Shown here: positions 1,903 to 33,781 of the stretch, piece by piece
Numbering within the stretch: position 1 is the stretch's first letter
Layout: each line of letters opens with the position of its first letter
Source: Streptomyces antimicrobicus
Lineage (GTDB): Bacteria; Actinomycetota; Actinomycetes; Streptomycetales; Streptomycetaceae
Assembly: GCF_020532625.1 (NCBI RefSeq)
Contig: NZ_JAJAUY010000006.1
Location: 1 to 64,000 of the forward strand
Length of the DNA: 64,000 nt
Direction: 5' to 3'
Position numbers and translations under genes: made by a program
The notes under the pieces: model-generated
Told to the model about the DNA's origin: nothing
The model's input: only the letters and a program-made list of their open reading frames with translations
The model's database searches: none

Positions 1903-2057
1903 GCTGCTTATCCACCCTCCCGACATGATCTGCCCCCATATTGTCCACAGCCTGTTGACAGGCCTGTTCGGGGGACCCCGCCGCAGGCCAGGGGGCGGGT
2001 CACCCCATTTGCATGCGGCCGGATCGCGCCCCGATCACCCCTCGGTAAGCTGACGGC

Positions 2058-2705
2058 ATGACAGGACAAGTACGCACCGTCGACGGCCGTGTCGCCGGCC
2101 GGCGCGGTCAGGCGACGCGGCAGAAGCTGCTCGACTGCCTCAGCGAGATGCTCAGCACCTCGCCGTACCGCGACGTCAAGGTCATCGACGTCGCCAGGAA
2201 GGCCGGCACCTCGCCCGCGACCTTCTACCAGTACTTCCCGGACGTCGAGGGCGCCGTCCTGGAGATCGCCGAGCAAATGGCCGCCGAGGGCGCGCAGTTG
2301 ACCGCGCTCGTCGAGGGCCGCTCCTGGGCCGGCAAGTCGGGCTGGCAGGCCGCGGAGGAACTCGTCGACGGATTCCTGGACTTCTGGCGCCGCAACGACG
2401 CCATCCTGCGGGTCGTGGACCTCGGCGCGGCCGAGGGCGACAAGCGCTTCTACAAGATCCGCATGAAGATCCTGAACTCCGTCACCAACTCCCTCTCGGC
2501 GTCGATGCAGGAGCTCCAGGCCAAGGGCAGGCTCGACAAGGACCTCAGCCCCGCCGCCATGGCCGGCTCGATCGTCGCGATGCTCGCCGCGGTCGCCTCG
2601 CACCAGAAGGGGTTCCAGACCTGGGGCGTGAAGCAGGCCGAGCTCAAGCCGAACCTGGCGCTGCTCGTGCACCTGGGCATGACGGGCAAGAAGCCCTCCA
2701 AGTAA
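2058..2705 (+). CDS. TetR-family transcriptional regulator
   Basis: The protein has 215 residues. An N-terminal helix-turn-helix lies at about residues 15-60 (ATRQKLLDCLSEML, then VIDVARKAGTSPATFYQYF), followed by an all-helical ligand-binding domain. TetR proteins usually repress until an acyl-CoA or other ligand binds. It is divergent from the VOC gene and convergent with the nitroreductase/acyl-CoA dehydrogenase operon. A degenerate copy of the nearby lipid-gene operator (CTGACGGCATGACAG, 2050-2064) overlaps its start codon and has one perfect half-site. On position alone it is the best candidate for the regulator that reads the CTGACGGNNCGTCAG sites in this window. The family call is firm; the regulon link is inference. 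Confidence 0.9.
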   Translation: MTGQVRTVDGRVAGRRGQATRQKLLDCLSEMLSTSPYRDVKVIDVARKAGTSPATFYQYFPDVEGAVLEIAEQMAAEGAQLTALVEGRSWAGKSGWQAAEELVDGFLDFWRRNDAILRVVDLGAAEGDKRFYKIRMKILNSVTNSLSASMQELQAKGRLDKDLSPAAMAGSIVAMLAAVASHQKGFQTWGVKQAELKPNLALLVHLGMTGKKPSK

Positions 2706-2729
2706 CGGCGGACCCTGCCGGGTCCGCCG
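2706..2729. terminator. Bidirectional hairpin between convergent genes
   Basis: A perfect 10-bp stem (CGGCGGACCC with GGGTCCGCCG) encloses a TGCC loop. It begins one base after the TetR stop and ends 3 bp before the stop of the convergent nitroreductase gene, so it can serve both strands. Confidence 0.75.
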
Positions 2730-2732
2730 CGA

Positions 2733-3209
2733 TCAGCGCCGTTCCAGCCGGAACAGCCTGATCTCCCGCTCGATCCGCGCCTGGTACGCCGCGTACGGCG
2801 GCCAGAACCGCAGCACCGCCTCCCACGCCGCCGCGCGCTCCGCGCCCTGGAGCAGCCGGGCCCGGACGTCGATGTCCCGCCCCTTCCAGCTCACCCGGGC
2901 GTCCGGGTTCTTGAGCAGGTTCGCGGTCCAGGCCGGGTGCCCGGGCCGGCCGAAGTTGGACCCGACCAGGATCCAGCTCGTCCCGCCCTCCTCGGGCATG
3001 CACGCCAGCGGCGTGGTGCGGGGCTCCCCGGTCCTGGCGCCCTTGGCGGTGAGGACCACCCCGGGCAGCATCCGGGCGCTGAGCAGGACCTTGCCGCGGG
3101 TGAGCCGGTGCACCGCCTTGTCGAGGGCGGGGACGAAGTGCGGGGCGACCTTCGCGAAGAGCGGTGTGGAGGACAGCCACTGCATCAGCTTCACGCCGGG
3201 TGCGGCCAT
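2733..3209 (-). CDS. Deazaflavin (F420)-dependent nitroreductase-family protein
   Basis: The 158-residue protein belongs to the split-barrel DDN-type family. Members use cofactor F420 to reduce quinones or nitro compounds. It has the typical core: VVLTAKGARTGEPRTTPL, then WILVGSNFGRPGHPAW and NLLKNPDARV. Its ATG overlaps the stop of the upstream acyl-CoA dehydrogenase (TGATG), so the two are translationally coupled. Together they form a two-gene operon behind the palindrome at 4492. The reductase could recycle or modify a quinone or unsaturated intermediate of the acyl-CoA pathway. No substrate is visible. Confidence 0.85.
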   Translation of the reverse strand: MAAPGVKLMQWLSSTPLFAKVAPHFVPALDKAVHRLTRGKVLLSARMLPGVVLTAKGARTGEPRTTPLACMPEEGGTSWILVGSNFGRPGHPAWTANLLKNPDARVSWKGRDIDVRARLLQGAERAAAWEAVLRFWPPYAAYQARIEREIRLFRLERR

Positions 3210-4471
3210 CAGAGCACCACCCTCTCGCGGTGGACGCCGGTGGCGGTCGCGCCGGTGCTCGCGGCGACCGCGGCGCCGCCGGCCACGCCCGCCGGCCCCG
3301 GACCGAACAGCCCGGCCCGCTCGGCCGCGTGCGCGCGCAGCCGGTGGACCGGCCCGAACAGCAGCTCGTCGGCCGCCGCCCGCTTGAAGTACAGGTGCGC
3401 GTCGTGCTCCCAGGTGAAGCCGATCCCGCCGTGCAGCTGGATCGCCTCCCCGGCGCTCCCCCGCAGCGCCTGCAGCGCCTGGGCGAGCGCGAGCGGGCCC
3501 TGCTCGGGGTCCCAGGCCGCGTAGTACGCCGCCGAGCGGGCCGCCTGGACCTGTACGTAGAGGTCGGCCAGCCGGTGCTTGACCGCCTGGAACGAGCCGA
3601 CGGCCCGCCCGAACTGCTCGCGCCGGCCCACGTACTCCACCGTCCGGGCCAGCGCCTGCCCGGCCGCGCCGACGGCCTCGGCGGCGAGCGCGGCCGCCGC
3701 GGTCCGGCCGGTGGCGGCCAGCGCCGCGAGCGCGTCCGCGTCCTCCTCCCCCAGCGGTTCGGCGGGTACGTCGCGCAGCTGGACCCGGCCCTGGGCCCGG
3801 GTCTCGTCCAGCGCGGTCTGCCGGGTCCGCACCAGCCCGGGCACGTCGCCGTCGGTGTCCCGGGCCCGTACGAGGAACAGCGCGGTCCGGCTGCGCGCGA
3901 AGCCGCCGGTGTGCGCGGCGACCAGCAGCAGCCCGGCCCGGTGCCCGTCGAGGACCTGGGCGGCCTCGCCGTACAGCCGCCAGCCGTCCTCCGTCCGGCG
4001 GGCCTGCACGCCCCCGGCCCGTCCGCCGCCGGCCCAGTCGCCCTCGGTGTTCTCACCGGTCAGGGCGAGGGCGGTGGCCAGCGCGGTGCCGGGGACGGCG
4101 AGCGCGGCGGTGAGGGAGCCGTCGGCGAGCCCGGGCAGCAGGGCCGCCCGCTGGGCCGCGGTCCCCAGCGCCGTGACCAGCGGCGTCACCAGCACGGCGG
4201 TGGCCAGCAGCGGCGAGGGCAGCAGCACCCGCCCGGCCTCCTCGCAGGCGAGCGCCAGGTCGGTGGGGGTGCAGCCGACCCCGCCGTACTCCTCGGCGAC
4301 GGCCGTGCCGGGCAGCCCCAGCACCTGTGCGAGCTGCTGCCACAGCTCGCGGTCGTACCCGGCGGCGGTCCGTACGGCGGCCTTGACCTCGTCCGGTCCG
4401 CAGCGCTTGCCCAGGATCTCGCGCAGGGTGCGGCGCATCTCGTCCTGCTCCGCGGTGAAGGCGGCGTCCAT
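3209..4471 (-). CDS. Acyl-CoA dehydrogenase (FadE28-like type)
   Basis: The 420-residue flavoprotein is of the acyl-CoA dehydrogenase fold, which introduces an alpha-beta double bond into acyl-CoA. The helical N-domain and beta domain are weakly conserved. The C-domain has VGRREQFGRAVGSFQAVKHR and the signature IQLHGGIGFTWEHDAHLYF. The C-terminus lacks the RNIxAERxLGLP ending seen in the partner type. This resembles the subunits that pair into heteromeric dehydrogenases of steroid side-chain degradation, and the window holds partner-type genes at 21068 and 29756. The start at 4471 lies 20 bp downstream of the 4492 palindrome. The gene is divergent from the thiolase at 4588. Confidence 0.88.
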   Translation of the reverse strand: MDAAFTAEQDEMRRTLREILGKRCGPDEVKAAVRTAAGYDRELWQQLAQVLGLPGTAVAEEYGGVGCTPTDLALACEEAGRVLLPSPLLATAVLVTPLVTALGTAAQRAALLPGLADGSLTAALAVPGTALATALALTGENTEGDWAGGGRAGGVQARRTEDGWRLYGEAAQVLDGHRAGLLLVAAHTGGFARSRTALFLVRARDTDGDVPGLVRTRQTALDETRAQGRVQLRDVPAEPLGEEDADALAALAATGRTAAAALAAEAVGAAGQALARTVEYVGRREQFGRAVGSFQAVKHRLADLYVQVQAARSAAYYAAWDPEQGPLALAQALQALRGSAGEAIQLHGGIGFTWEHDAHLYFKRAAADELLFGPVHRLRAHAAERAGLFGPGPAGVAGGAAVAASTGATATGVHRERVVL

Positions 4472-4491
4472 CGGCGGGCTCCTCCCCGTAA

Positions 4492-4506
4492 CTGACGGGC
4501 CGTCAT
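4492..4506. promoter_or_regulatory. Lipid-regulon operator, copy a
   Basis: CTGACGGGCCGTCAT holds a perfect 13-bp palindrome around a single central base. It lies 20 bp upstream of the acyl-CoA dehydrogenase start and shares the 117-bp divergent region with copy b. It is one of nine such sites in the window. Confidence 0.75.
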
Positions 4507-4587: not shown

Positions 4588-5763
4588 ATGCCTGCACCCA
4601 CGCCCCGCCGCAAGGTCGCTGTCGTCGGCGTCGCCCTCTCGGACTGCGGCAAGGTCGACGGCCCGACCCCCTACGCCCTGCACGCCCAGGCCGCCCGCCG
4701 CGCCCTCGCCGACTCCGGCCTGGACCGCTCGGTGATCGACGGCCTCGCCTCCGCCGGGCTCGGCACCCTGGCCCCGATCGAGGTCGCCGAGTACCTGGGC
4801 CTGCGCCCCACCTGGGTGGACTCCACCTCGGTCGGCGGCTCCACCTGGGAGGTGATGGCCGCCCACGCGGCCGACGCCGTCGCGGCGGGCCACGCCGACG
4901 CGGTCCTGCTCGTCTACGGCTCCACCGCCCGCGCCGACATCAAGGCCCGCCGGCGCACCTCCAACCTCTCCTTCGGCGCCCGCGGCCCGCTCCAGTTCGA
5001 GGTGCCCTACGGCCACACGCTGGTGGCCAAGTACGCGATGGCGGCCCGGCGGCACATGCACGAGTACGGCACCACCCTGGAGCAGCTCGCCTCGGTGGCC
5101 GTCCAGGCCCGCGCGAACGCCGCCACCAACCCGCAGGCCATGTACCGCGACCCGATCACGGTCGAGGACGTGCTCGCCGCCGAGATGATCGCCGACCCCT
5201 TCACCAAGCTGCACTGCTGCATCCGCTCCGACGGCGGCTGCGCGGTCCTGCTCGCCGCCGAGGAGCTGGTCCCCGACACGGCCAGCACCCCCGTGTGGGT
5301 GCTCGGCCACGGCACCGCCGTCTCGCACACCACCATGTCCGAGTGGCCCGACTTCACCGTCTCCCCGGCGGCCGCCTCCGGCCGCCAGGCCTTCGCCCGG
5401 GCCGGCCTGACCCCGGCCGACGTGGACCTCGCCCAGATCTACGACGCCTTCACCTACATGACCCTGGTGACCCTGGAGGACCTCGGCTTCTGCGCCAAGG
5501 GCGAAGGCGGGGCCTTCGTGGAGAAGGGCCGCCTGCTGCGCGACGGCGACCTGCCGGTCAACACCGACGGCGGCGGCCTGTCCGCCTGCCACCCGGGCAT
5601 GCGGGGCCTGTTCCTCCTGGTCGAGGCCGTCCGCCAGCTGCGCGGCGAGGCGGGCGCCGGCCAGGTCCGCAGGCGCGACGGCAGCCTGCCCGAGGTCGCC
5701 GTCGCCTCCGGCACCGGCGGCTGGTTCTGCTCCTCGGGCACCCTCCTGCTCGGCCGCGGCTAG
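4588..5763 (+). CDS. SCP-x/lipid-transfer-type thiolase-fold protein lacking the usual nucleophile
   Basis: The 391-residue protein has the thiolase fold. Normal thiolases cleave 3-ketoacyl-CoA with a cysteine in a CxGG-like loop. Here the matching loop, about residues 71-80, reads STSVGGSTWE with no cysteine. The usual GHPxGATG histidine loop is ACHPGMRGLF. Loss of the nucleophile is known in the Ltp2 group, which acts as a retro-aldolase on steroid side chains and needs a DUF35 partner. A DUF35 protein with the same type of operator lies at 12276. The start ATG is 4 bp after operator copy b. The PNPOx gene follows 54 bp downstream. The fold is sure; the aldolase reading is inference. Confidence 0.82.
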   Translation: MPAPTPRRKVAVVGVALSDCGKVDGPTPYALHAQAARRALADSGLDRSVIDGLASAGLGTLAPIEVAEYLGLRPTWVDSTSVGGSTWEVMAAHAADAVAAGHADAVLLVYGSTARADIKARRRTSNLSFGARGPLQFEVPYGHTLVAKYAMAARRHMHEYGTTLEQLASVAVQARANAATNPQAMYRDPITVEDVLAAEMIADPFTKLHCCIRSDGGCAVLLAAEELVPDTASTPVWVLGHGTAVSHTTMSEWPDFTVSPAAASGRQAFARAGLTPADVDLAQIYDAFTYMTLVTLEDLGFCAKGEGGAFVEKGRLLRDGDLPVNTDGGGLSACHPGMRGLFLLVEAVRQLRGEAGAGQVRRRDGSLPEVAVASGTGGWFCSSGTLLLGRG

Positions 5764-5817: not shown

Positions 5818-6504
5818 ATGGACGCCATGAGCAGCGAAGAGCCCCTCGACGACTTCCACGCCGCCCTGCGCGCCGCCCGCGTGTGGGACATCGAACTCCC
5901 GCGCTTCGACCCGGCCGACGCCCCCGCCGACCCCGTCGCCCTCTTCCGGCAGTGGTTCGTGCACGCCGCGAAGGCGGGCCAGCCGGAGCCGCACACCATG
6001 TCCCTGGCCACGGCGGACGAGGCCGGCCGCCCCGACGTGCGCACGCTGATGCTGCACGACGCCGACGCCCGCGGCTGGCACTTCGCCTCGCACTCCACCA
6101 GCGCCAAGGGCCGCCAGCTGGCGGCCCGTCCGGAGGCGGCCCTCGGCTTCTACTGGCCGGCCGTCGCCCGCCAGGTGCGCGTCCGCGGCCGGGTCACCGC
6201 CGCCGGCCCCGAGGTCAGCCGCGCCGATCTGGCCGTCCGCTCGCGCGGCGCCCTGGCCGCCGCGCTGACCGGCCACCAGAGCGAGGTCCTGGACTCCCCC
6301 GAGGAACTGGCCCGCGCCTCGGCCGCCGCCTGGGAACGCGCCGGCGCCGAACCGGACGCACCGGCCCCGACCTGGACGGCGTACGTCCTGGAACCCGACC
6401 GCGTCGAGTTCTTCCAGGGCGACGCGATGCGCCGGCACGTACGGCTGCGCTACCGCCGCACACCCGACGGCCACGGCTGGGCCACGGAACTCCTCTGGCC
6501 CTAG
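5818..6504 (+). CDS. Pyridoxamine-phosphate-oxidase-like FMN protein
   Basis: The 228-residue split-barrel protein resembles PdxH. It has TMSLATADEAGRPDVRTLML, then GWHFASHSTSAKGRQLAARP, ALGFYWPAVARQVRVRGRV, and a C-terminal RVEFFQGD...LRYRR block. PdxH makes pyridoxal 5'-phosphate using FMN. The window has a better pdxH at 50495, so this copy may oxidise or reduce something else. It lies 54 bp behind the thiolase on the same strand and is probably cotranscribed from the operator-b promoter. A second in-frame ATG at 5827 is an equally possible start, as neither has a clear ribosome site. Confidence 0.8.
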   Translation: MDAMSSEEPLDDFHAALRAARVWDIELPRFDPADAPADPVALFRQWFVHAAKAGQPEPHTMSLATADEAGRPDVRTLMLHDADARGWHFASHSTSAKGRQLAARPEAALGFYWPAVARQVRVRGRVTAAGPEVSRADLAVRSRGALAAALTGHQSEVLDSPEELARASAAAWERAGAEPDAPAPTWTAYVLEPDRVEFFQGDAMRRHVRLRYRRTPDGHGWATELLWP

Positions 6505-12275: not shown

Positions 12276-12728
12276 TCAGGGGGTGGGCGCGGGCCGGAAG
12301 AGGGGGACGCTCACCCCCTCGGCGAGGTCCCGGAAGGTGACTTGTAGGGCCATGCCGACGCGGAGGGCGGCGGGGTCGGGGCAGTCGACCACCTCGGTCA
12401 TCATCCGCGGTCCCTCGGCGAGTTCCACGACGGCGGCGACGTACGGCACCCGCCCGCCGAACGGCGGCAGGTCGTTGCGGTGGACGACGGACCAGGTGTA
12501 CAGCGAGGCCAGTCCACTGGCCGGGCGCCACGTGACCTGCTCCTCCCCCGCCCAGCAGTGGGGGCAGAACTCGCGCGGGTAGTGGTGGGTCCGCCCGCAC
12601 GCGGCGCAGTACCGCAGCAGCAGCGCCCCCTCGCGGGCGGCGTCCCAGTAGGGCCGGGTGAACGCGTCGATCTCGGGCAGGTCGAAGGACGGGGCGGGGG
12701 CGGCGGCGCGCGCCGCGGGCGTGTTCAC
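12276..12728 (-). CDS. DUF35/OB-fold protein with zinc ribbon, acyl-CoA-associated
   Basis: The 150-residue protein has an N-terminal helix (FTRPYWDAAREGALLLRYC), a rubredoxin-like zinc ribbon CAAC...CPHC at about residues 41-60, and a C-terminal OB fold (LYTWSVVHRN, YVAAVVELAEGPRMMTEVV). DUF35 proteins partner thiolase-fold enzymes or hydratases, for example ChsH2 with the Ltp2 aldolase in steroid side-chain cleavage. Its GTG start overlaps the DoxX stop (GTGA), so the two genes are coupled and share the operator at 13213. The Cys-less thiolase at 4588, behind the same operator type, is its most likely partner. That pairing is inference. Confidence 0.87.
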   Translation of the reverse strand: MNTPAARAAAPAPSFDLPEIDAFTRPYWDAAREGALLLRYCAACGRTHHYPREFCPHCWAGEEQVTWRPASGLASLYTWSVVHRNDLPPFGGRVPYVAAVVELAEGPRMMTEVVDCPDPAALRVGMALQVTFRDLAEGVSVPLFRPAPTP

Positions 12729-13189
12729 AGGAAGAGCCCCGCCGCCGCGTCGAGGGACCAGACCTGCCAGCTCATGGTGAACAGCGAGACCACCGAGATG
12801 AGGGCCATCATCGCGTTCTGCCCCTGTTCGGCCCAGTCGTGGATCATCAGCACGAGGTAGAGCAGGTTCAGCAGCAGACCGCCGACCAGCGCGACGGGCG
12901 TGAGGAACCCGGCGACGAGACCGAGTCCGACGGCCAGCTCCGCGTACACGACGACGTACGCCATCAGCCGGGGCCGGGGCTCGACCACCTGCCGGAAGCC
13001 CCGGGTGACGAAGCCCCACCGGTGCTTGCCGGCCACCTCGGCGGCCCACGCGATGCCCGTGCCGCGCTCGAACCAGCCCTTCTTGTCCTTGTGCCGCCAG
13101 CTCTCCAGCCACCACAGCCCGAGCCCGATCCGGAGCACAGCGCCCCACTCGACCCCACTGAGCCACACGGTCCGCATCCCCGTCCCCAC
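12725..13189 (-). CDS. DoxX-family membrane protein
   Basis: The 154-residue protein has about four transmembrane helices, including VLRIGLGLWWLESW, YVVVYAELAVGLGLVAGFL and the LLLNLLYLVLMI stretch. A soluble loop with a run of charged residues (RHKDKKGWFERG) follows the first helix. DoxX proteins are small quinone- or electron-transfer-linked membrane proteins of ill-defined function. The ATG at 13189 is used, though an ATG four codons later is also possible. The start lies 23 bp from operator c at 13213. It is first in a two-gene operon with DUF35. Confidence 0.85.
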   Translation of the reverse strand: MGTGMRTVWLSGVEWGAVLRIGLGLWWLESWRHKDKKGWFERGTGIAWAAEVAGKHRWGFVTRGFRQVVEPRPRLMAYVVVYAELAVGLGLVAGFLTPVALVGGLLLNLLYLVLMIHDWAEQGQNAMMALISVVSLFTMSWQVWSLDAAAGLFL

Positions 13190-13212
13190 CGCCCTCCACC
13201 GCGCGCACTTAT

Positions 13213-13460: not shown

Positions 13461-14627
13461 ATGCCTGGAGCGCCCACCGAGCCCGACCTGATGAGCACGC
13501 AGCCGCGTCCCGTGTACGTGATCGGTGCCGGGCCCGCCGGGCTCGCCGCGGCCGCCGCGCTGCGCGGGCGCGGGGTGCGCGCCGTGGTCGTGGAGAAGGC
13601 CGACGCCGTCGGCGACTCCTGGCGGCGCCACTACGACCGGCTGCGCCTGCACACCACCCGCCGGCTGTCCGCCCTGCCGGGGCTGGCGGTGCCGCGCCGG
13701 TTCGGGCGCTGGGTGGCCCGCGCCGACGTGGTCCGCTACCTGGAGAAGTACGCCGAGTTCCACGAGCTGGAGATCGTCACCGGCGTCGAGGTGCACCGCG
13801 TCGAACGCGCTGCCGACGGCGCCGGCTGGACCCTGTACGCCAGCGGCGGCCGGGAACTGGCCGCAAGTGCCGTGGTCGTGGCCACCGGCTTCAACCACAC
13901 CCCCCGCCTGCCGGACTGGCCCGGCCGCGACACCTTCACGGGCCGCCTCGTGCACGCGTCGGCGTACCGCAACGCCGCCCCCTACACCGGCCAGGACGTC
14001 CTGGTCGTCGGCGTCGGCAACACCGGCGCCGAGATCGCCGTCGACCTCGCCGAGGGGGGCGCCGCCCGCGTGCGGCTGGCCGTACGCACCGCCCCGCACA
14101 TCGTGCGCCGCTCCACCTTGGGCTGGCCCGCCCAGCGCACCGGCATCCTGGTGCGCCGCCTGCCGGTGCGCCTGGTGGACCGGCTCGGGGCGCTGGTGGC
14201 CCGGATCTCCGTGCCCGACCTGTCCGCGTACGGGCTCCCGCGGCCCACCACCGGCCTGTACAGCCGCGTCCGGCAGGGCGCGATACCCGTGCAGGACGTC
14301 GGCCTGATCGACGCCGTCCGCGCCCGCCGGGTGCTGCCGGTGGCCGCGGTGGAGGCCTTCGACGGCGCCGAGGTCGTCCTCGCCGACGGCTCCCGCGTCA
14401 CTGCGGACGCGGTGATCGCGGCCACCGGCTACGTCCGCGGGCTGGAGCCGCTCGTCGGCCACCTGGGCGTCCTGGACGGGCGCGGCCGCCCCACGGCCCA
14501 CGCCCCCCGCAGCCCGGCCGGGGCGCCGGGACTGTACTTCGTCGGGTACACCAATCCCATCTCGGGCATGTTCCGGGAACTGGCCCTGGACGCCCGCAAG
14601 CTCGCCCGGGCCCTCGCCCGCCGGTAG
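13461..14627 (+). CDS. Flavin-containing monooxygenase-like NAD(P)/FAD oxidoreductase
   Basis: The protein of about 388 residues has two dinucleotide-binding folds: VIGAGPAGLAAAAALRGRG near the N-terminus and VVGVGNTGAEIAVDLAEGG at mid-protein. It also has the ATGF and ATGY loops that close FAD domains. The pattern matches the class B monooxygenase group, which includes Baeyer-Villiger enzymes and FMOs that oxygenate ketones, amines or sulfides. I see no clear FxGxxxHxxxW fingerprint, so the exact subclass is open. The start may be ATG 13461 or 13491; neither has a convincing ribosome site. It stands alone between operator-bearing operons and has no such palindrome in front. Confidence 0.85.
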   Translation: MPGAPTEPDLMSTQPRPVYVIGAGPAGLAAAAALRGRGVRAVVVEKADAVGDSWRRHYDRLRLHTTRRLSALPGLAVPRRFGRWVARADVVRYLEKYAEFHELEIVTGVEVHRVERAADGAGWTLYASGGRELAASAVVVATGFNHTPRLPDWPGRDTFTGRLVHASAYRNAAPYTGQDVLVVGVGNTGAEIAVDLAEGGAARVRLAVRTAPHIVRRSTLGWPAQRTGILVRRLPVRLVDRLGALVARISVPDLSAYGLPRPTTGLYSRVRQGAIPVQDVGLIDAVRARRVLPVAAVEAFDGAEVVLADGSRVTADAVIAATGYVRGLEPLVGHLGVLDGRGRPTAHAPRSPAGAPGLYFVGYTNPISGMFRELALDARKLARALARR

Positions 14628-21071: not shown

Positions 21072-22270
21072 CTGGGCTCCTTCGGCAGGCCGAGCACCCG
21101 CTCGGCGATGATGTTGCGCTGGATCTCGTCCGAGCCGCCGTAGATCGTGTCGGCGCGGGTGAAGAGGAACAGCCGCTGGGCCTCGTCCAGCGGGTAGGGG
21201 TCCTGCGGTGTCCAGTCGCGGGGGCCGGCGGTCGCCGCCGCCCCCCGGACCGCCACCGCCAGTTCACCCAGGCGCCGGTGCCAGCCGCCCCACAGCAGCT
21301 TGGCCACGCTGGGCGCCCCCGGGTCCTCGGGGCCGCCGCCGAGGGTGCGCAGCGCGTTCCAGCGCATGGTGCGCAGCTCCGCCCACTGCCGCACCAGCCG
21401 CTCCCGCAGCACCGGGTCGGCGGAGGTGGGCGAGGCGAGGAAGGCGCCGACGACGCGTTCGAGTTCGGCGGCGAAGCCGATCTGCTGGACCAGGGTGGAC
21501 ACGCCGCGTTCCAGGGCCAGCAGCCCCATGGCGACGGTCCAGCCGTTGCCCTCGCCGCCGACCACCTCCTCGGCCACCGCCCCGTCGAGGAACACCTCGT
21601 TGAACTCGCTGGTCCCCGACATCTGCCGGATCGGCCGGACCTCGATCCGGCCCGGCTGGTCCATGGGGACGAGCAGGAAGGACAGCCCGTGGTGGCGCCG
21701 GGAGCCCGGCTCGGTGCGGGCCAGGACGAAGCACCAGTCGGCCTCCCGGGCGAGCGAGGTCCAGATCTTCTGGCCGGTCACCCGGTAGGTGCCGGCCGCC
21801 GTGCGCCGCGCGGCCGTACGGATCCCGGCCAGGTCCGAGCCGGCGTCGGGTTCGCTGTAGCCCTGGCACCACAGCTCCTCGCCGCGCGCGACGGGCGGCA
21901 GGAAGCGGCTGCGCTGCTCCTGGCTGCCGTACGCCAGCAGGGTCGGGGCGAGCAGGTTCTCGCCGATGTGGCCGACCCGGGCAGGGGCGCGCAGCCGGGC
22001 GTACTCCTCGGCCCACACGACCTGCTGGGTCAGGCTCGCGCGCCGCTGGCCGTACGCGCCCTCGGGCGCCTGCCAGCCCAGTCCGATCCAGCCGGCCCGC
22101 CCCAGTTCGCGTTCCCACTCCCGGCGGGCGCCGCCGCCCTCGTGCTCGCTGCCGGGGCCGCCGAGCCCGGCCGCGTGGGCGTACGGGCCGCCGCCGGTCA
22201 GCCGTTCGGCGAGCCAGTCACGGGCCCGCCGCCGGAACTGCTCCTCCTCCGCACCGAACCCGAAGTCCAC
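21068..22270 (-). CDS. Acyl-CoA dehydrogenase (FadE29-like type)
   Basis: The 400-residue flavoprotein has GEELWCQGYSEPDAGSDLAG (FAD/substrate contact), GQKIWTSLAREADWCFVLART, the beta-domain LSFLLVPMDQPG, and the C-terminal block TIYGGSDEIQRNIIAERVLGLP. That ending marks the partner type that pairs with HGGxGFTWE-type subunits in heteromeric dehydrogenases. No such partner is in this operon; the closest are at 3209 and 28686. It starts 13 bp after the SDR stop and overlaps the alcohol dehydrogenase start. Confidence 0.9.
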   Translation of the reverse strand: MDFGFGAEEEQFRRRARDWLAERLTGGGPYAHAAGLGGPGSEHEGGGARREWERELGRAGWIGLGWQAPEGAYGQRRASLTQQVVWAEEYARLRAPARVGHIGENLLAPTLLAYGSQEQRSRFLPPVARGEELWCQGYSEPDAGSDLAGIRTAARRTAAGTYRVTGQKIWTSLAREADWCFVLARTEPGSRRHHGLSFLLVPMDQPGRIEVRPIRQMSGTSEFNEVFLDGAVAEEVVGGEGNGWTVAMGLLALERGVSTLVQQIGFAAELERVVGAFLASPTSADPVLRERLVRQWAELRTMRWNALRTLGGGPEDPGAPSVAKLLWGGWHRRLGELAVAVRGAAATAGPRDWTPQDPYPLDEAQRLFLFTRADTIYGGSDEIQRNIIAERVLGLPKEPR

Positions 22271-22283: not shown

Positions 22284-23195
22284 CTACGCGTTGGGGCGGT
22301 CCTTGGCGGCCGCCGCCTTCGCCATGGCCTCCAGCTGGGCCAGCATCGGCATGGGGTCGGTGCCCACCGTGCCCGGGAGGAAGTCGGCGATCTTCTGCGG
22401 GGTCCAGGAGCCCTCCGCGTAGCCGGCGCGCAGCTCGCGCGGCTGGGCCCAGACGGCGATCTTGGGGCCGGCGATCGTGTAGACCTGCCCGGTGATGCCC
22501 TCGGCGCGGGCGCGTTCGCTGAGCAGGTACGTCACCAGCGCGGCCACGTCCTCCGGCTCGCCGATCTCCTTGAGCTCCATGGGGACGTTGGCGGACATCC
22601 GGGTCCGGGCCACCGGCGCCACGGCGTTGGCGGTGACCCCGTACTTGTGCAGGCCGAGCGCCGCGGAGCGGACCAGGGAGATGATCCCGCCCTTGGCGGC
22701 GGAGTAGTTGGCCTGGGCCACCGAGCCCTGGTGGTTGCCGCTGGTGAAGCCGATGAGGGTGCCGGTGCCCTGCTTGCGCATGACGGCGGAGGCGGCGCGG
22801 AAGACGGTGAAGGTGCCCTTGAGGTGGGTGGCGACGACGGGGTCCCACTCCTCCTCGGTCATGTTGAACAGCATCCGCTCGCGCAGGATGCCCGCCACGC
22901 ACACGACCCCGTCGAGGCGTCCGTAGTGCTCGACGGCGGTGTCCACCACGCGCCGGCCGCCCGCCATGGTGGAGATGTCGTCGGCGACCGCGAGGGCCTG
23001 CCCGCCCGCCGCGAGGATCTCCTTCACCACGCCGTCGGCGATCTCGCTGGTCGGCTCGCCGCCCTCGATCGAGACGCCGTAGTCGTTGACGACGACCTTG
23101 GCGCCCTCGGCGGCGGCGGCCAGCGCGACGGCCCGGCCGATGCCGCGGCCGGCGCCGGTGACGGCCACGACCTTGTCTGCCAAGAAGTTCCCCAC
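22284..23195 (-). CDS. Short-chain dehydrogenase/reductase, 3-hydroxyacyl-CoA dehydrogenase-like
   Basis: The 303-residue SDR has the cofactor motif VTGAGRGIGRAVALAAAAEG and the active-site YSAAKGG. The long loop after the first strand (VNDYGVSIEGGEPTSEIAD) is like that of MFE-2/17-beta-hydroxysteroid dehydrogenase 4 proteins, which oxidise 3-hydroxyacyl-CoA. It is the first gene of a three-gene operon. Its start lies 22 bp from operator f, shared with the divergent cyclase. Confidence 0.9.
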   Translation of the reverse strand: MGNFLADKVVAVTGAGRGIGRAVALAAAAEGAKVVVNDYGVSIEGGEPTSEIADGVVKEILAAGGQALAVADDISTMAGGRRVVDTAVEHYGRLDGVVCVAGILRERMLFNMTEEEWDPVVATHLKGTFTVFRAASAVMRKQGTGTLIGFTSGNHQGSVAQANYSAAKGGIISLVRSAALGLHKYGVTANAVAPVARTRMSANVPMELKEIGEPEDVAALVTYLLSERARAEGITGQVYTIAGPKIAVWAQPRELRAGYAEGSWTPQKIADFLPGTVGTDPMPMLAQLEAMAKAAAAKDRPNA

Positions 23196-23285: not shown

Positions 23286-24221
23286 ATGAGACCCATGCCG
23301 CTGCCTCCCGAGTTCCACGACATCGCCAAGCGCGTCAACAACTGGGGTCGCTGGGGCGCCGACGACGAGAGGGGCACGCTGAACCTGGTCACCGACGAGG
23401 TCGTACGGGCGGCCGCGGCCGAGATCCGCACCGGGCGCCGGATCCCGCTGGCGCTGCCGCTGAAGGAGGACGGGGTGCAGGCCGGGATGATCCCGGGCCG
23501 GATCAACCCGCTGCACACGATGGTGCAGATCAACCAGGAGATCTTCGGTCCGGGCACGGTGGCGTGCAGCGACGACGCGGTGACCATGGGCCTGCAGGCG
23601 GCCACCCACTGGGACGCCCTCACGCATGTCTCCCACTCGGGGAAGATCTGGAACGGCCGCCCCGCGGACACCGTCACGGCGCACACCCGGGCCCAGTACA
23701 GCGGCATCGACAAGGCGGGCCCGATCGTCTCCCGCGGGGTGCTGCTGGACGTGGCGGCGGCCAAGGGCCTGGACCGGCTGCCGGGCGGGCACGCGGTGAC
23801 CCCGGCGGACCTGGCGGAGGCCGAGGAGTTCGGGCGGGTGACGGTCCGCCCCGGCGACATCGTCCTGGTCCGCACCGGCCAGATGCAGGTCTACCTGGCC
23901 GGGGACAAGCACGGCTACGGCTTCCCGTCCCCCGGCCTGTCGATCCGCACGCCGGAGTGGTTCCACGCGCGGGACGTGGCGGCGGTCGCGAACGACACGC
24001 TCACCTTCGAGATCTTCCCGCCCGAGATCGAGAACCTGTGGCTGCCGGTGCACGCGCTGGACCTGGTCGAGATGGGCATGCACCAGGGCCAGAACTGGAA
24101 TCTCGAAACCTTGTCCACAGCCTGTGGAGAAGCCCGGCGGTACAGCTTCCTGCTGTCGGCCATGCCGGAGCCGTTCGTGGGCGGCACCGGGACCCCGGTG
24201 GCCCCGGTGGCGATCCTCTGA
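23286..24221 (+). CDS. Cyclase-family (kynurenine formamidase-like) metal hydrolase
   Basis: The 311-residue protein has the family metal motif as ATHWDALTHVSHSG, at about residues 101-114. The core strands RGVLLDVAAAKG and VRPGDIVLVRTGQM are also present. Relatives include KynB, isatin hydrolase and polyketide-cyclase-like enzymes that open cyclic amides or lactones. Here the acyl-CoA setting suggests lactone or ring hydrolysis. ATG 23286 follows AAGGAG at 3 bp; ATG 23295 would have a 12-bp gap, so the start is uncertain by three codons. It is divergent from the SDR across operator f. Confidence 0.85.
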   Translation: MRPMPLPPEFHDIAKRVNNWGRWGADDERGTLNLVTDEVVRAAAAEIRTGRRIPLALPLKEDGVQAGMIPGRINPLHTMVQINQEIFGPGTVACSDDAVTMGLQAATHWDALTHVSHSGKIWNGRPADTVTAHTRAQYSGIDKAGPIVSRGVLLDVAAAKGLDRLPGGHAVTPADLAEAEEFGRVTVRPGDIVLVRTGQMQVYLAGDKHGYGFPSPGLSIRTPEWFHARDVAAVANDTLTFEIFPPEIENLWLPVHALDLVEMGMHQGQNWNLETLSTACGEARRYSFLLSAMPEPFVGGTGTPVAPVAIL

Positions 24222-28685: not shown

Positions 28686-29747
28686 TCAACTCTCCGTCAG
28701 GTCCGCCGCCAGCGCCTCCTCCGCCTCCGCCGCCGTGAGCCACTGCTCGGCGCGCAGCCAGGCCCGCTTGAGGTGCAGGTGGACCTCGGCCTCCCAGGTG
28801 AAGCCCATGCCGCCGTGCACCTGGAGGCAGTCCCGGGCGCCCCGCACCGCCGCCTCGTCGGCCAGCAGCTTGGCCGCCGCGGTCTCCACCGGGTCGCCGG
28901 TCACCGCTGCCGCGTAGACCGCCGTACGGGCCAGCTCGGCGCGGACCAGCATCTGCGCGCACAGGTGCTTGACCGCCTGGAAGGCGCCGATGGGCCGGCC
29001 GAACTGCTCGCGGCGGCCGGCGTACGCCACCGCCAGCTCGGTCGTGCGCAGCGCGCTGCCGACCTGGAGCGCGGCGGTCAGCAAGGCCCCTTCGCGCCGG
29101 TACGGGGCCGGCTCCCCGGGCCCGCCCGCACCCCCCGGCCCGGCCGCCGCGGGCCGGGCGGTCCCGGCGCTCCCGGCGCTCCCAGGAGTCCCGGCGGTCC
29201 CGGCGGTCCCGACGCTCCCGGCGGTCCCGGGGGCCTCGGCCGTCCCCTCCGAGCGGGCCGCCCGGCCGAGCGGCGTGAGCGGGTCCACCGATGCCGCCGG
29301 CCCGGCCGCGACGGCGGGGCGTCCGGCCGCGACCGCGGCCGGGCCGGACCCGCCGAGCACCGCGTCCGCCTCGGCCGGGTAGGTCACCAGGCCGTCGCCG
29401 AGGTCGTACGCGGTGACCAGCACCCGGCCCTCCGCCGCCCCCGGCACCGTCCCGGCGGCCAGCCAGGTCGCCACCAGCGGCCCCGGCAGCAGGGCCCGGC
29501 CGGCCTCCTCGAAGAGCAGGACCGCCTCCGGCAGGCCCAGCCCGACCCCGCCCGCCTCCTCCGGCAGCCCGAGCGCGAAGAACCCGGTGTCGCCGAGCTC
29601 CCGCCACAGCCGCCGGTCCACCACCGGCGCGCCGGCCTCGGCCGCCGCCACGGCCGCGCGGAGCGCGTCCTGACCGAAGCGGGCGGCCAGCACCTCGCGC
29701 AGGCCCGCCCGCAGGGCCCGCTGCTCCTCCGTCGGCTGGAAGTCCAC
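28686..29747 (-). CDS. Acyl-CoA dehydrogenase (FadE28-like type) with Ala/Gly-rich insert
   Basis: The protein of about 353 residues is the second dehydrogenase of a pair. It starts VDFQPTEEQRALRAGLREVL and ends with AYAGRREQFGRPIGAFQAVK and CLQVHGGMGFTWEAEVHLH. Between about residues 155 and 210 lies an insert built from Gly-Thr-Ala-Gly-like repeats, encoded by 9-bp repeats near 29150-29240. It is unlike the rest of the family and probably a surface loop. GTG 29747 is used; a GTG at 29759 overlapping the upstream stop is an alternative. With the gene at 29756 it likely forms a heteromeric enzyme like ChsE1-ChsE2. Confidence 0.86.
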   Translation of the reverse strand: MDFQPTEEQRALRAGLREVLAARFGQDALRAAVAAAEAGAPVVDRRLWRELGDTGFFALGLPEEAGGVGLGLPEAVLLFEEAGRALLPGPLVATWLAAGTVPGAAEGRVLVTAYDLGDGLVTYPAEADAVLGGSGPAAVAAGRPAVAAGPAASVDPLTPLGRAARSEGTAEAPGTAGSVGTAGTAGTPGSAGSAGTARPAAAGPGGAGGPGEPAPYRREGALLTAALQVGSALRTTELAVAYAGRREQFGRPIGAFQAVKHLCAQMLVRAELARTAVYAAAVTGDPVETAAAKLLADEAAVRGARDCLQVHGGMGFTWEAEVHLHLKRAWLRAEQWLTAAEAEEALAADLTES

Positions 29748-29755: not shown

Positions 29756-30901
29756 TCACCCGCCCTTCGGGAGGCCGAGGATCCGCTCGGCGACGATGTT
29801 GCGCTGGATCTGCGAGGTGCCGGCGGCGATCGTGTACGACAGCGAGGACAGCCGGTCGGCCACCCAGGGCCCGCCCTCCCCGTCCAGCACCAGCGCCCGC
29901 GCGCCCAGCACCTCGGCCGCCGCGTCGTACAGCTCCTGGCGGGCGTGGGAGTAGCGCAGCTTGAACACCGAGCCGCCCACCCCCGGCACCCCGCCCGGGG
30001 AGCGCTGCGCCTCGCTGACGTTCCACTGGGTGAGCCGCCACAGCGCGCCGAACTCGGCGTGCAGCCGCCCCAGCCGGCGCCGCAGCGCCGGATCGTCCCA
30101 GCGCCCGCTGCGCCGGGCGGCCCGCGCCAGCTCGGCCAGGACCCGGCGGCAGGCCACCACCTCGCCGACGAACGCGGTGCCGCGCTCGAAGGACAGCGTC
30201 ACCATGGTCACGCGCCAGCCGTCGTTCTCGTCGCCGACCCGGTTGCGGACCGGGACCCGGACCTCGTCGAGGAACACCTCGGCGAACTCGGCGGACCCGG
30301 CGAGCGTCCGCAGCGGCCGTACGGTCACCCCGGGGGCGTCCATGGGCATCGCCAGCCAGGAGATCCCCCGGTGCCGGGGCGCGCGCGGATCGGTGCGCAC
30401 CAGCAGTTCGCACCAGTCGGCGACCTCGGCGTGGGAGGTCCAGATCTTCGAGCCGGTCACCACGTAGTCGTCCCCGTCGCGCACCGCCCGGGTGCGCAGG
30501 GCCGCGAGGTCGGAGCCGGCGTCGGGCTCGCTGAAGCCCTGGCACCAGATCTCCTCGCCCCGCAGGATCGGCGGCAGCCATCGCTCGCGCTGCTCGGGGG
30601 TGCCCTCGGCGGCGATGGTCGGTCCGGCGTGCAGCAGTCCGACGAAGTTGGCCCCGACGTACGGCGCCCCGGCCCGCTCGGTCTCCTCCAGGAAGATCAG
30701 CCGCTGCGTCGGGGACGCGTCCCAGTGCAGGTCGGCGTAGCCCGCGTCGTACAGGGCCCGCTGCCAGCCGGCGTCGTAGGCGCGGCGGCCCGGCCAGTCG
30801 CCGGGCGAGGGCTTCGGCGGCAGCTTCGCCAGCGCCCCGGCGAGCCAGTCCCGCAGCCGTGCGCGGAAGGCCTCTTCCTCCTCGGTGTACGTCAGGTCCA
30901 T
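29756..30901 (-). CDS. Acyl-CoA dehydrogenase (FadE29-like type)
   Basis: The 381-residue flavoprotein has GEEIWCQGFSEPDAGSDLAA, GSKIWTSHAEVADWCELLVR and the C-terminal TSQIQRNIVAERILGLPKG. It overlaps the stop of the amidohydrolase (TGATG) and is followed at once by the FadE28-like gene. The tight order alpha-type then beta-type mirrors heteromeric dehydrogenases acting on steroid or other bulky side chains. All three genes are expected to run from the promoter with operator g. Confidence 0.9.
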   Translation of the reverse strand: MDLTYTEEEEAFRARLRDWLAGALAKLPPKPSPGDWPGRRAYDAGWQRALYDAGYADLHWDASPTQRLIFLEETERAGAPYVGANFVGLLHAGPTIAAEGTPEQRERWLPPILRGEEIWCQGFSEPDAGSDLAALRTRAVRDGDDYVVTGSKIWTSHAEVADWCELLVRTDPRAPRHRGISWLAMPMDAPGVTVRPLRTLAGSAEFAEVFLDEVRVPVRNRVGDENDGWRVTMVTLSFERGTAFVGEVVACRRVLAELARAARRSGRWDDPALRRRLGRLHAEFGALWRLTQWNVSEAQRSPGGVPGVGGSVFKLRYSHARQELYDAAAEVLGARALVLDGEGGPWVADRLSSLSYTIAAGTSQIQRNIVAERILGLPKGG

Positions 30902-32088
30902 CAGACGAGGTCCAGGCCGAGCATCCGGATCGCGTTGCCCCGCATCAGCTTGTGGACGGTCTCCTCGTCCAGCCCCTCGACGTGGTCGAGGGCGACCTGC
31001 TTGGTGTGCGGGAAGGTGGAGTCCACGTGCGGGTAGTCGGTCTCGAAGGTGGCGTTGTCGCGACCGACGACGTCGAGCGAGGCGATGCCGTGCTTGTCGC
31101 GGAAGAAGCAGCAGAAGATCTGCCGGTAGTAGTACGTCGACGGCGGCTCGGGGACCAGGTCGCGCACCCCGCCCCAGGCCCGGTGCTCGCGCCAGACGTC
31201 GTCGGCGCGCTCCAGGGCGTACGGGATCCAGCCCATCTGGCCCTCGCTGTAGGCCAGCTTGAGCCGCGGGAACTTCACCAGCACCCCGCTGAACAGGAAG
31301 TCCATCATCGAGGCCATGGCGTTGTTGAAGCTCAGCGAGGCCTGCACGGCGGGCGGCGCGTCCGGGGAGGCGGCGGGCATCTGCGAGGAGGACCCGATGT
31401 GCATGTTGACCACCGTCCCGGTCTCCTGGCAGACGGCGAAGAACGGGTCCCAGTAGCCGGAGTGGATCGAGGGCAGGCCGAGGTAGGTGGGGATCTCCGA
31501 GAAGGTCACCGCCCGCACCCCGCGCGCGGCGTTGCGCCGGATCTCCGCGACCGCCAGGTCGATGTCCCACAGCGGGATGATGCACAGCGGGATCAGCCGG
31601 CCGCCGCTGTCGCCGCACCACTCCTCGACCATCCAGTCGTTGTACGCGCGCACGCACGCCAGCGCGACCTCCTTGTCGTGCGCCTCGGCGAAGGTCTGGC
31701 CGCAGAACCGCGGGAAGGTGGGGAAGCACAAGGAGGCCTCGACGTGGTTGAGGTCCATGTCGGCCAGCCGCGCCTTGGGGTCCCAGCAGCCCCGCCGCAT
31801 CTCCTCGCGGGTGATGCCCTCCAGGGTCATCTCGTCGCGGTCGAAGCCGACGGCGGCGATGTTGCGCTTGTACGGGAACTTCAGGTCCTCGTAGATCCAC
31901 CAGTCGGTCGGGGGGCCGTCGGGGTCCATCGTGATCTGGTACTTGCCCCCGACGTACGCCAGCTCGCCGATGCCCGCCGTGACGGCCCGGGGGCCCCGGT
32001 CCCGGTACTTGGCCGGCAGCCAGGTGTCGAAGAGGTGGGCGGGCTCGATCACGTGGTCGTCGACGCTGATGATCCGGGGCAGTTCCAT
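30901..32088 (-). CDS. Amidohydrolase-2 family metal-dependent hydrolase
   Basis: This TIM-barrel protein of about 395 residues begins with ISVDDHVIEP, the metal-binding DxH of the family. It contains NHVEASLCFPTFPRFCGQTF and the late metal/acid region FETDYPHVDSTFPHTK. Members hydrolyse or decarboxylate cyclic substrates (ACMSD-like decarboxylases, ring hydrolases). ATG 32088 follows GAGGGG; ATG 32103 lies upstream of that site and is less likely. It is first in an operon with two acyl-CoA dehydrogenases, downstream of operator g. Confidence 0.88.
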   Translation of the reverse strand: MELPRIISVDDHVIEPAHLFDTWLPAKYRDRGPRAVTAGIGELAYVGGKYQITMDPDGPPTDWWIYEDLKFPYKRNIAAVGFDRDEMTLEGITREEMRRGCWDPKARLADMDLNHVEASLCFPTFPRFCGQTFAEAHDKEVALACVRAYNDWMVEEWCGDSGGRLIPLCIIPLWDIDLAVAEIRRNAARGVRAVTFSEIPTYLGLPSIHSGYWDPFFAVCQETGTVVNMHIGSSSQMPAASPDAPPAVQASLSFNNAMASMMDFLFSGVLVKFPRLKLAYSEGQMGWIPYALERADDVWREHRAWGGVRDLVPEPPSTYYYRQIFCCFFRDKHGIASLDVVGRDNATFETDYPHVDSTFPHTKQVALDHVEGLDEETVHKLMRGNAIRMLGLDLV

Positions 32089-32139
32089 GGGTTCCCCTCG
32101 CATGGTCCCTGAGCGTTCCTGGGCAACGGCTCACAGTTT

Positions 32140-32154
32140 CTGATGGATCGTCAG
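32140..32154. promoter_or_regulatory. Lipid-regulon operator, copy g
   Basis: CTGATGGATCGTCAG, dyad extended to TTTCTGA...TCAGAAA. It lies upstream of the amidohydrolase/acyl-CoA dehydrogenase operon. Confidence 0.77.
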
Positions 32155-32217
32155 AAACAAGCTAGCCCCGCCACCCCTGGACCGACAAGCGGCAGCGCCC
32201 TACGCTCTCCAGTCGAT

Positions 32218-32232
32218 CTGACGGAACGTCAG
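32218..32232. promoter_or_regulatory. Lipid-regulon operator, copy h
   Basis: CTGACGGAACGTCAG, 16 bp upstream of the AMP-ligase start. Copies g and h are 78 bp apart and serve divergent genes. Confidence 0.78.
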
Positions 32233-32248
32233 GACTTGGAGGTCCCCG

Positions 32249-33781
32249 ATGTCCGCACCCGAGCAGCTGAGCGGCTCCCCCACCCTGTGGTCCCTGGTCG
32301 CCGCGCGCGCCGCGCTCACCCCGGACACCCCCGCGCTGATCGAGGCCGAGACCGGCCGCACCCTCACCTTCGGGGCCCTGCGCGAGCGCGGCGAGCGGGT
32401 GGCGGCCGGGCTGTACGGCCTCGGCGTACGGCCCGGCACGGTGGTCGCCTGGCAGCTGCCCACCCGGATCGAGACGGTGCTGTTCTCGGTCGCCCTCGCC
32501 CGGCTGGGCGCCGTCCAGTCCCCGGTGATCCCCTTCTACCGGGACCGCGAGGTCGCCTTCGCGCTGCGCTCCTCCCGCGCCGAGTTCTTCGCCGTACCGG
32601 GCGTCTGGCGCGGGTTCGACCACACGCAGATGGCCCACCGGCTCGGCGCCCGCGGCGTCCTCCAGGTCTACGCCGACCTGCCCGGCGGCGACCCGGCCGT
32701 GCTGCCCCCGCCCCCGGCGGACGGCACGGCGGTCCGCTGGATCTACTGGACCTCCGGCACCACCTCCGACCCCAAGGGCGTCCTGCACACCGACCGCTCG
32801 CTGCTCGCCGGCGGCTCCTGCCTGGCCCACGCGCTGCGCCTGCGACCCACCGACGTCGGCTCGATCGCCTTCCCGTACGCGCACATAGGCGGGCCCGACT
32901 ACCTGGTGATGCTGCTGCTGTACGGGTTCCCGGCGGTCCTGTTCGAGACGTTCGCCCTGCCGGAGGCGGTGGCCGCCTACCGGCGGCACGGGGTCACCGT
33001 GGCGGGCGGCTCCACCGCCTTCTACTCCATGTTCCTCGCCGAGCAGCGCAGGACGCCCGGCGAGAAACTGATCCCCAGCCTGCGGCTGCTGGCCGGCGGC
33101 GGCGCGCCCAAGCCGCCGGAGATCTACCACGCGGTGGTCCGTGAGCTGCGCTGCCAGCTCACCCACGGCTACGGCATGACCGAGGTCCCGATGATCACCA
33201 TGAACTCGCCCGACGACACCGCCGAGCACCTGGCCACCACCGAGGGCCGGCCGCCCGCGGGCATGTCGGTCCGGATCACCGACGCCGACGGCAAGCCGCT
33301 GCCGGCCGGCACCGAGGGCGAGGTCCGGCTGCGCGGCGAGGCCGTGTGCCAGGGCTATCTGGATCCGGCCCAGACGGCGCAGGCGTTCGACGCGGACGGC
33401 TACCTGATCACCGGCGACCTCGGCCACCTCACCGCACAGGGGCACCTGGTGCTGACCGGGCGCACCAAGGACGTGATCATCCGCAAGGGCGAGAACGTCT
33501 CGGCCAAGGAGATCGAGGACCTGCTGCACCGGCTGCCGGGGGTCGGCGACGCCGCCGTGATCGGGCTGCCCGACCCCGAGCGCGGCGAGCGGGTGTGCGC
33601 GGTGGTCGAACAGCCGCCGGGAGCCGCGCCGCTGACGCTGGCGGAGGTCACGGCGTACCTGCGCGGCGAGGGCCTGGCCACCCACAAACTGCCGGAGCAG
33701 CTGGAGGTGGTCGAGGCCCTCCCCCGCAACGAGACGCTCCGCAAGGTCCTGAAACACAAACTCCGCGAACGCTTCACCTGA
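32249..33781 (+). CDS. AMP-forming acyl-CoA ligase
   Basis: The 510-residue protein is a class I adenylate-forming enzyme. It makes acyl-AMP and then acyl-CoA. Motifs in order: phosphate-binding WTSGTTSDPKGVLHTD, HGYGMTEVP, GYLITGDLGHL, hinge GRTKDVIIRKGENVSAKEIED, and the C-terminal catalytic lysine in NETLRKVLKHKLRERF. It is related to FadD and cyclohexanecarboxylate-CoA ligases. Divergent from the amidohydrolase operon with its own operator h, it probably performs the entry step of the regulon's pathway. The substrate cannot be read from the sequence. Confidence 0.92.
   Translation: MSAPEQLSGSPTLWSLVAARAALTPDTPALIEAETGRTLTFGALRERGERVAAGLYGLGVRPGTVVAWQLPTRIETVLFSVALARLGAVQSPVIPFYRDREVAFALRSSRAEFFAVPGVWRGFDHTQMAHRLGARGVLQVYADLPGGDPAVLPPPPADGTAVRWIYWTSGTTSDPKGVLHTDRSLLAGGSCLAHALRLRPTDVGSIAFPYAHIGGPDYLVMLLLYGFPAVLFETFALPEAVAAYRRHGVTVAGGSTAFYSMFLAEQRRTPGEKLIPSLRLLAGGGAPKPPEIYHAVVRELRCQLTHGYGMTEVPMITMNSPDDTAEHLATTEGRPPAGMSVRITDADGKPLPAGTEGEVRLRGEAVCQGYLDPAQTAQAFDADGYLITGDLGHLTAQGHLVLTGRTKDVIIRKGENVSAKEIEDLLHRLPGVGDAAVIGLPDPERGERVCAVVEQPPGAAPLTLAEVTAYLRGEGLATHKLPEQLEVVEALPRNETLRKVLKHKLRERFT

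Follow-up and report, generated by a model that had tools for sequence, protein, structure and literature searches.

Which regulator, if any, holds together the acyl-CoA genes scattered over the first 64,000 nucleotides of contig NZ_JAJAUY010000006.1 of Streptomyces antimicrobicus (the whole stretch analysed, hereafter the window), and what kind of acid do their products degrade? The original prediction, made from the letters of the window, was that a nine-site palindromic operator joins these genes into one regulon controlled by the TetR-family protein encoded from position 2058 (TetR 2058). Here we show that the palindrome is a repeated site that is placed intergenically, is conserved in Streptomyces and in part of a second family, recurs at the TetR gene itself, and co-occurs with that gene across genomes. 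From these observations we infer TetR binding, repression, an acyl-CoA ligand, and a substrate class; we consider it likely that the nine palindromes are copies of a predicted operator present at about 34 places, and that TetR 2058 is a repressor released by a bulky, ring-bearing acyl-CoA. TetR-controlled acyl-CoA catabolic regulons are already known; searches of open full-text literature did not bring up this site and regulator, or any paper connected with the motif or with targets of TetR 2058.

The palindrome in the window and the genome

The palindrome reads CTGACGNNNCGTCAG, with A/T-rich flanks on either side. Three exact and six one-mismatch copies occur in the window, where 60 dinucleotide shuffles, the null for the symmetric motif, average 0.0 and 0.4. 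These copies coincide exactly with the nine sites originally proposed as a single motif, and all nine lie where they had been placed; the looser pattern used to define them, which allowed three mismatches, did not rise above chance (62 occurrences against a shuffle mean of 60.4), and the symmetric motif was therefore used as the statistic instead. Scores were assigned with a 25-bp flank-aware matrix trained on the nine window sites plus 69 exact sites of Streptomyces loci, so that scores in the window and in those loci are partly circular, and those on other contigs and in a second family (f14) are independent. The matrix recovers additional A/T positions on both sides, roughly AT-CTGACG-NNN-CGTCAG-AT. 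The nine sites, which are part of the training set, are as follows.

4492..4506: operator-type site, ACAD (acyl-CoA dehydrogenase) side of a divergent promoter, 26.9 bits
4569..4583: operator-type site, thiolase side of the same divergent promoter, 32.2 bits
13213..13227: operator-type site, exact copy and top score, 38.2 bits
14712..14726: operator-type site, 19.2 bits
14736..14750: operator-type site, 24 bp from site 14712, 20.0 bits
19118..19132: operator-type site, exact copy, 27.5 bits
23218..23232: operator-type site, 28.5 bits
32140..32154: operator-type site, 27.5 bits
32218..32232: operator-type site, exact copy, 28.4 bits

Three other two-mismatch sites in the window (6118, 24387, and 27958) were rejected at -5.3, -12.7, and 4.6 bits, respectively, versus 19-38 bits for the nine. 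The gene for a NACHT-domain protein (24743-26995), which lies between regulon operons, carries no site, as had been noted.

The 6.5-Mb genome contains 89 copies with at most one mismatch, versus 12 for a reversed control, and 14 exact copies versus 1; the scoring covered 80 of the 89. Genes were called with our own codon-usage caller and are uncurated, and "intergenic" tolerates a 12-bp overlap with a gene end. By this measure, of the 42 distinct sites that reach 14 bits, all but two inside genes in loci L108 and L150 are intergenic, and these 40 fall at 34 places. The closest start codon is 0-111 bp away for 37 of the 40; two of the other three lie upstream of a luciferase-like gene only partly covered by the DNA analysed. 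Sixteen of the 34 places head runs with ACADs, CoA ligases, thiolase/DUF35 proteins, enoyl-CoA hydratase (ECH) or MaoC hydratases, DitZ-related amidohydrolases, or CYP125. Seven places precede redox enzymes only (an HsaB-like flavin reductase, three luciferase-like proteins, of which one reaches an NCBIfam F420 subfamily cut-off, SDRs, and a ferredoxin-reductase-like protein), and one precedes a branched-chain-type ABC transporter. A 25.5-bit site at 6280 of locus L144 (contig C35) lies 28 bp 5' of a non-acyl-CoA protein with an NlpC/P60-like C-terminal end, judged by eye. Mce-type import, considered for contig C68, was rejected: the three proteins examined there have no Pfam match and appear secreted or membrane-bound.

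TetR 2058 and its association with the motif

The proposed regulator and the palindrome that overlaps its start codon, a degenerate site already recognised in the original prediction, are located at the left end of the window.

2058..2705, + strand: TetR-family regulator, proposed repressor; TetR_N (PF00440) 27 bits, TetR_C_38 (PF19352) 240 bits, EthR-like fold
2050..2064: palindrome over the TetR start codon, two mismatches, proposed autoregulation; kept in 80 of 80 Streptomyces orthologous loci

TetR 2058 belongs to the TetR family by its TetR_N DNA-binding domain and TetR-type helical ligand domain, and shows the family trait of a dyad-symmetric site both at its own gene and at the proposed targets. 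It has a single close match within its own genome. The best fold match is EthR of M. tuberculosis, at about 19% identity, which is too low for an orthologue call, and no acyl-CoA regulon of EthR turned up here; the fold matches listed are mostly EthR, with DesT and FadR ranked under it, and KstR is not among them. Neither KstR nor KstR2 is among the 10 PDB sequence matches of TetR 2058.

At its left end the window encodes the N-terminal portion of a serine/threonine kinase (HRDLKPSN), and a glyoxalase and then the TetR gene follow; by synteny the kinase, at 1-946, is probably AfsK. In S. coelicolor, according to PMC3878966, the TetR gene SCO4421 lies near afsK (SCO4423), is expressed in spore chains in a whiA-dependent manner, and could be deleted with no detected phenotype; the passages considered name no targets or operator for it. 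By synteny, given the kinase-glyoxalase-TetR order in the window, TetR 2058 is likely the SCO4421 orthologue.

Conservation was assessed in the best 80 of 563 Streptomyces TetR matches. Besides the start-codon site, the palindrome was kept in 65 of 65 intact ACAD/thiolase divergent promoters, the remaining 15 loci having no intact ACAD/thiolase pair in the locus DNA or alignment. All 69 exact copies in these loci are intergenic, compared with 15 of 71 for 179 other half-site permutations pooled. The matrix picks out 271 sites in these loci that reach 14 bits, none of them intragenic. The genes they precede are the same ones, mainly the counterparts of ACAD 3209, of thiolase 4588, of the ADP-forming ligase, and of the DoxX-like and FMO genes, together with orthologues of the FadD3-family ligase and the Ltp gene of contig C179, 46 times each.

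A survey of 394 genomes of the class (TetR presence at E<=1e-20) found TetR in 69, including 40 of 40 Streptomyces, in which 439 exact sites were counted versus 17 reversed-control copies. Leaving aside Streptomyces and family f13, at least five exact sites were present in 12 of 24 TetR-positive but only 2 of 325 TetR-negative genomes (Fisher p about 4e-14, phylogeny ignored); G150, one of these two, is a genome of only 68% completeness. Family f13 was left out because its copies are often intragenic; with it included, 17 of 29 TetR-positive genomes have at least five sites. Eight of 19 loci outside Streptomyces have a site with one mismatch or none no farther than 150 bp from the TetR match, at other positions; the TetR orthologues with their own sites at other distances are 36-61% identical. 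In family f14, for which sites of G109 and G013 and the TetR locus only of G036 were covered, 36 of 36 sites are intergenic and 25 precede recognisable relatives, three of them TetR itself; the highest identities are those to the C179 amidohydrolase (65-66%), ACAD 29756 (64%), SDR 22284 (65%), and ACAD 21068 (58%). Sites at its own gene and co-occurrence with the motif support TetR 2058 well as the best candidate regulator, and together provide strong evidence for the predicted binding of TetR 2058 to the CTGACGNNNCGTCAG palindrome. The idea of one regulon is supported far past the window, with 40 intergenic sites at 34 places and conserved orthologous promoters.

In the proposed mechanism, a TetR dimer on each 15-bp palindrome near a promoter or start codon would block transcription, that of its own gene included. 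A CoA ligase (FadD, FadD3-family, or ADP-forming) would convert the incoming acid into its thioester, the presumed inducer, and TetR would let go once the acyl-CoA of a steroid- or terpenoid-type acid builds up. The dispersed genes for activation, dehydrogenation, hydration, retro-aldol cleavage or thiolysis, and F420/flavin redox chemistry would then rise jointly.

One further TetR-like gene was observed in locus L138 (contig C130, 1744-2385), with a TetR-like N-terminus by eye. Its start is only 7 bp away from a site of 19 bits, an acetoacetate decarboxylase-SDR-amidohydrolase run faces it, and its product could be a local second regulator.

Probable target genes and the likely substrate

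The nine window sites form six places, ahead of ACADs, a thiolase, a DoxX-like/DUF35 pair, an FMO-type oxidase, an ADP-forming CoA ligase, an HsaB-like flavin reductase, an SDR/ACAD run, a cyclase, an amidohydrolase/ACAD pair, and a FadD.

2733..3209, -: F420H2-dependent quinone reductase-type protein, the gene after ACAD 3209 (PF04075)
3209..4471, -: acyl-CoA dehydrogenase, IpdE2-like subunit (NF050027 193 bits, under the cut-off of 450)
4588..5763, +: thiolase-like protein (PF22691; PRK06158 423.6 bits versus a cut-off of 421)
5818..6504, +: PNPOx-type flavoprotein, 3' of the thiolase
12276..12728, -: DUF35/ChsH2 C-terminal-type protein (PF01796 and PF12172, on the longer open reading frame 12276-13208)
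12725..13177, -: small predicted membrane protein, DoxX-like by eye, no Pfam match
13512..14627, +: FMO-like flavin oxidoreductase, start possibly 13335 (PF13738, PF00743)
14792..17026, +: ADP-forming acyl-CoA ligase, start possibly 14759 (PF13549, PF13607)
17058..17858, +: enoyl-CoA hydratase/isomerase, crotonase (PF00378)
18182..18964, -: glyoxalase-fold protein, divergent, 153 bp from site 19118, membership uncertain
19164..19766, +: HsaB-like flavin reductase (NF045630 186 bits, under the cut-off of 230)
20004..21071, -: zinc alcohol dehydrogenase
21068..22270, -: acyl-CoA dehydrogenase, PimC-like
22284..23195, -: SDR oxidoreductase (PF00106)
23295..24221, +: putative cyclase (PF04199)
28686..29747, -: acyl-CoA dehydrogenase, IpdE2/small-subunit type
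29756..30901, -: acyl-CoA dehydrogenase, large-subunit type
30901..32103, -: amidohydrolase-fold protein, DitZ/PtmU3 relative (8uyr DitZ 194.6 bits, 6omp PtmU3 139.1 bits)
32249..33781, +: AMP-forming acyl-CoA ligase, FadD type (PF00501; best NCBIfam cyclohexanecarboxylate-CoA ligase 317.9 bits, under the cut-off of 792)

The gene set first described (four ACADs, two CoA ligases, an SDR, a crotonase, a DUF35 protein, a flavin reductase, a cyclase, and an amidohydrolase) was recovered in full, and calling the thiolase Cys-less agrees with a VGGSTWE stretch where FadA5 has CQCGS (compared by eye, unaligned). These window genes are relatives of steroid enzymes only; the site-linked IpdE2-like ACADs resemble steroid-ring ACADs, though they score under the IpdE2 cut-off.

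Elsewhere in the genome the site set holds three groups with close matches to steroid enzymes, among them cholesterol side-chain catabolism-type genes (CYP125, FadA5, ChsE/ChsH/Ltp2). On contig C240, CYP125 (514 bits) and FadA5 (507 bits; phmmer to PDB here and for C39) share a divergent promoter with a site. A five-gene operon with a site on contig C39 encodes, in one run, a ChsE2-type ACAD, ChsH2, another ACAD, a MaoC protein, and Ltp2; matches of the ChsE2 type score 359-405 bits, those to ChsH2 100-166 bits, and that to Ltp2 564 bits. The run resembles the igr operon (ChsE1-ChsE2-ChsH1-ChsH2-Ltp2) and differs from it in being preceded by the new site; the 14 kb of DNA covered there contain no KstR core motif. 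On contig C179, also at a site, a FadD3-family ligase (788.6 bits, cut-off 657) lies opposite an Ltp-DUF35-ECH run.

KstR (Rv3574) of M. tuberculosis and M. smegmatis is, like the proposed regulator, an autoregulated TetR repressor with a dyad operator at many lipid-degradation promoters, and its description (PMC1995591) reports 16 and 31 intergenic motif instances; it differs in being another protein with another operator, TnnAACnnGTTnnA, and another enzyme core. TetR 2058 is not the Rv3574 orthologue, as the KstR-like protein is a separate gene (C12:19614+, 92 bits over 113 residues), and the KstR operator TnnAACnnGTTnnA has no match in the window. According to PMC5380842, the KstR2 regulon likewise contains a FadD3-type ligase. 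TetR 2058 is neither the Rv3557c orthologue nor ipd-linked: a KstR2-like TetR (193 bits) is encoded on contig C254 (locus L216, C254:12000-28000) next to genes provisionally labelled ipdA/B/C-like, FadA6-like, and ACAD-pair, and no site in this cluster reaches 14 bits. For this reason the KstR2 (HIP) pathway was rejected as the whole answer, and the proposed TetR circuit is a third one, separate from KstR and KstR2. ChsE3/FadE34, ipd, and FadA6 are provisional names; a putative KstR2 core motif was not found in the loci read.

Five KstR-like sites in the genome were counted as credible. KstR-like and new-type sites are adjacent at 6855/6918 and 10695/10711 of locus L114 (C12) and at 7566/7717 of locus L123 (C240). 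Three sterol-type promoters (CYP125/FadA5, a fused ACAD, and a MaoC operon) have both site types, which suggests that they are under dual control. AcrT (PMC8546615) was considered as a further comparison and rejected, its operator and its carboxylase and polyketide targets being different.

CYP125, FadA5, the igr-type operon, the FadD3-family ligase, the IpdE2-like ACADs, and the DitZ relatives all point towards steroid or terpenoid substrates. Our own tentative choice is a bulky alicyclic acid that would enter as its CoA ester; the degradation of sterol side chains would form one accessory branch. A genus-wide breakdown of self-made polycyclic isoprenoids, e.g. hopanoids, around sporulation, with TetR 2058, probably the spore-expressed SCO4421, as the sensor, seems improbable; CYP125, ChsE, ChsH, and Ltp2-type enzymes would then act on the CH(CH3) side chain of hopanoids, which is sterol-like in shape. 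We know of no hopanoid-degrading pathway.

Alternative explanations and significance

Several observations weigh against a TetR 2058 regulon for bulky acyl-CoAs. The 80 Streptomyces loci are closely related to each other, and the start-codon site they share is half coding, only the upstream CTGACG half being non-coding. Ten of the 34 places precede genes without an evident link (an NlpC/P60-like protein, secreted proteins, transporters, and unknowns); it had been anticipated that a random spread of the motif without a link to lipid genes would undo the proposal, and no such spread is seen in Streptomyces, these ten places notwithstanding. Six of the 40 TetR-bearing Streptomyces genomes have three exact sites or fewer (G277 0, G153 1, G234 1, G243 2, G285 2, G133 3), and so few (0-3) are also seen, once the genus and f13 are set aside, in 11 of the 24 TetR-positive genomes, mostly with distant TetR homologues. 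In family f14, 11 of 36 sites precede genes with no relatable counterpart. The abundance of the palindrome can also have another cause, as in family f13 (G012, G035, G053, G069, and G085; loci L181-L195), where each genome has 109-218 exact copies of CTGACGNNNCGTCAG, against 0-1 for the control, an iterated palindrome that is perhaps unrelated to TetR: of 15 copies inspected in G012, eight are intragenic and three lie at convergent stop codons. Finally, the genome has no PF19298 match for KshA and no TIGR03213 match for HsaC, although none of 14 control genomes exceeded either cut-off, so that the sensitivity of both searches is unproven. The analogy with steroid side-chain catabolism drawn at the outset is accordingly strengthened by CYP125, FadA5, and the igr-type operon under the motif, but it is incomplete, given these two missing enzymes, the genome's own KstR and KstR2, and the relatedness-only status of the window genes; complete sterol degradation is not supported. 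The regulon may have shrunk in G153, G234, and G277. In G277 the start-codon site and one one-mismatch site near TetR are retained.

That a different regulator binds the palindrome, TetR 2058 being merely its neighbour or target, is unlikely: other TetR-like genes exist, e.g. that on C130, and the predicted binding is read from sequence, but the start-codon site in all 80 orthologous loci, the separate sites 5' of divergent TetR orthologues, and the co-occurrence of TetR and motif across the class all argue for TetR 2058. A structural DNA or RNA element, such as a terminator-like hairpin or a highly iterated palindrome, with no regulator at all would accommodate the f13 copies, yet it is hardly credible where all exact copies examined in the 80 Streptomyces loci and in f14 are intergenic and upstream of particular genes, with extra A/T flanks around them.

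Two further possibilities accept a regulator and assign it to a known class. A general fatty-acid beta-oxidation regulon of the FadR/FasR type with unusual paralogues would explain the FadD, ACAD, ECH, and thiolase families and the fold similarity to DesT and FadR, but appears improbable, since straight-chain breakdown does not use enzymes such as DUF35/Ltp-type proteins, CYP125, or the DitZ-like ones. The genome moreover has 33 ACAD domain matches; site-linked operons hold none of the 16 that score at least 100 bits, which are nearest to the family model, and 9 of the 17 that score lower, which argues against plain fatty-acid oxidation. An ordinary actinobacterial steroid regulon under KstR or KstR2 would account for CYP125, FadA5, the igr-type operon, and the FadD3-family ligase among the targets, and for KstR-like sites beside three of the new sites. 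This is very improbable: the palindrome is different, the KstR2 cluster lacks it at 14 bits or more, and both proteins are encoded separately and absent from the TetR 2058 PDB matches listed.

Taking TetR 2058 as the probable reader of the palindrome, a specific candidate regulator, site, and target list become available for a large block of unassigned Streptomyces acyl-CoA genes, in a genus whose published genomes have so far mostly been judged to lack steroid pathways (a cholesterol pathway in 1 of over 50 Streptomyces, PMC4810484). A third TetR circuit would be added beside KstR and KstR2, and a likely function is offered for a gene whose deletion gave no detected phenotype (PMC3878966). 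According to a 1977 report that PMC5380842 cites, MOODA accumulates when a streptomycete grows on the steroid fragment HIP, and the regulon proposed here may supply candidate genes and a route to deregulation for work of the HIP/MOODA type.

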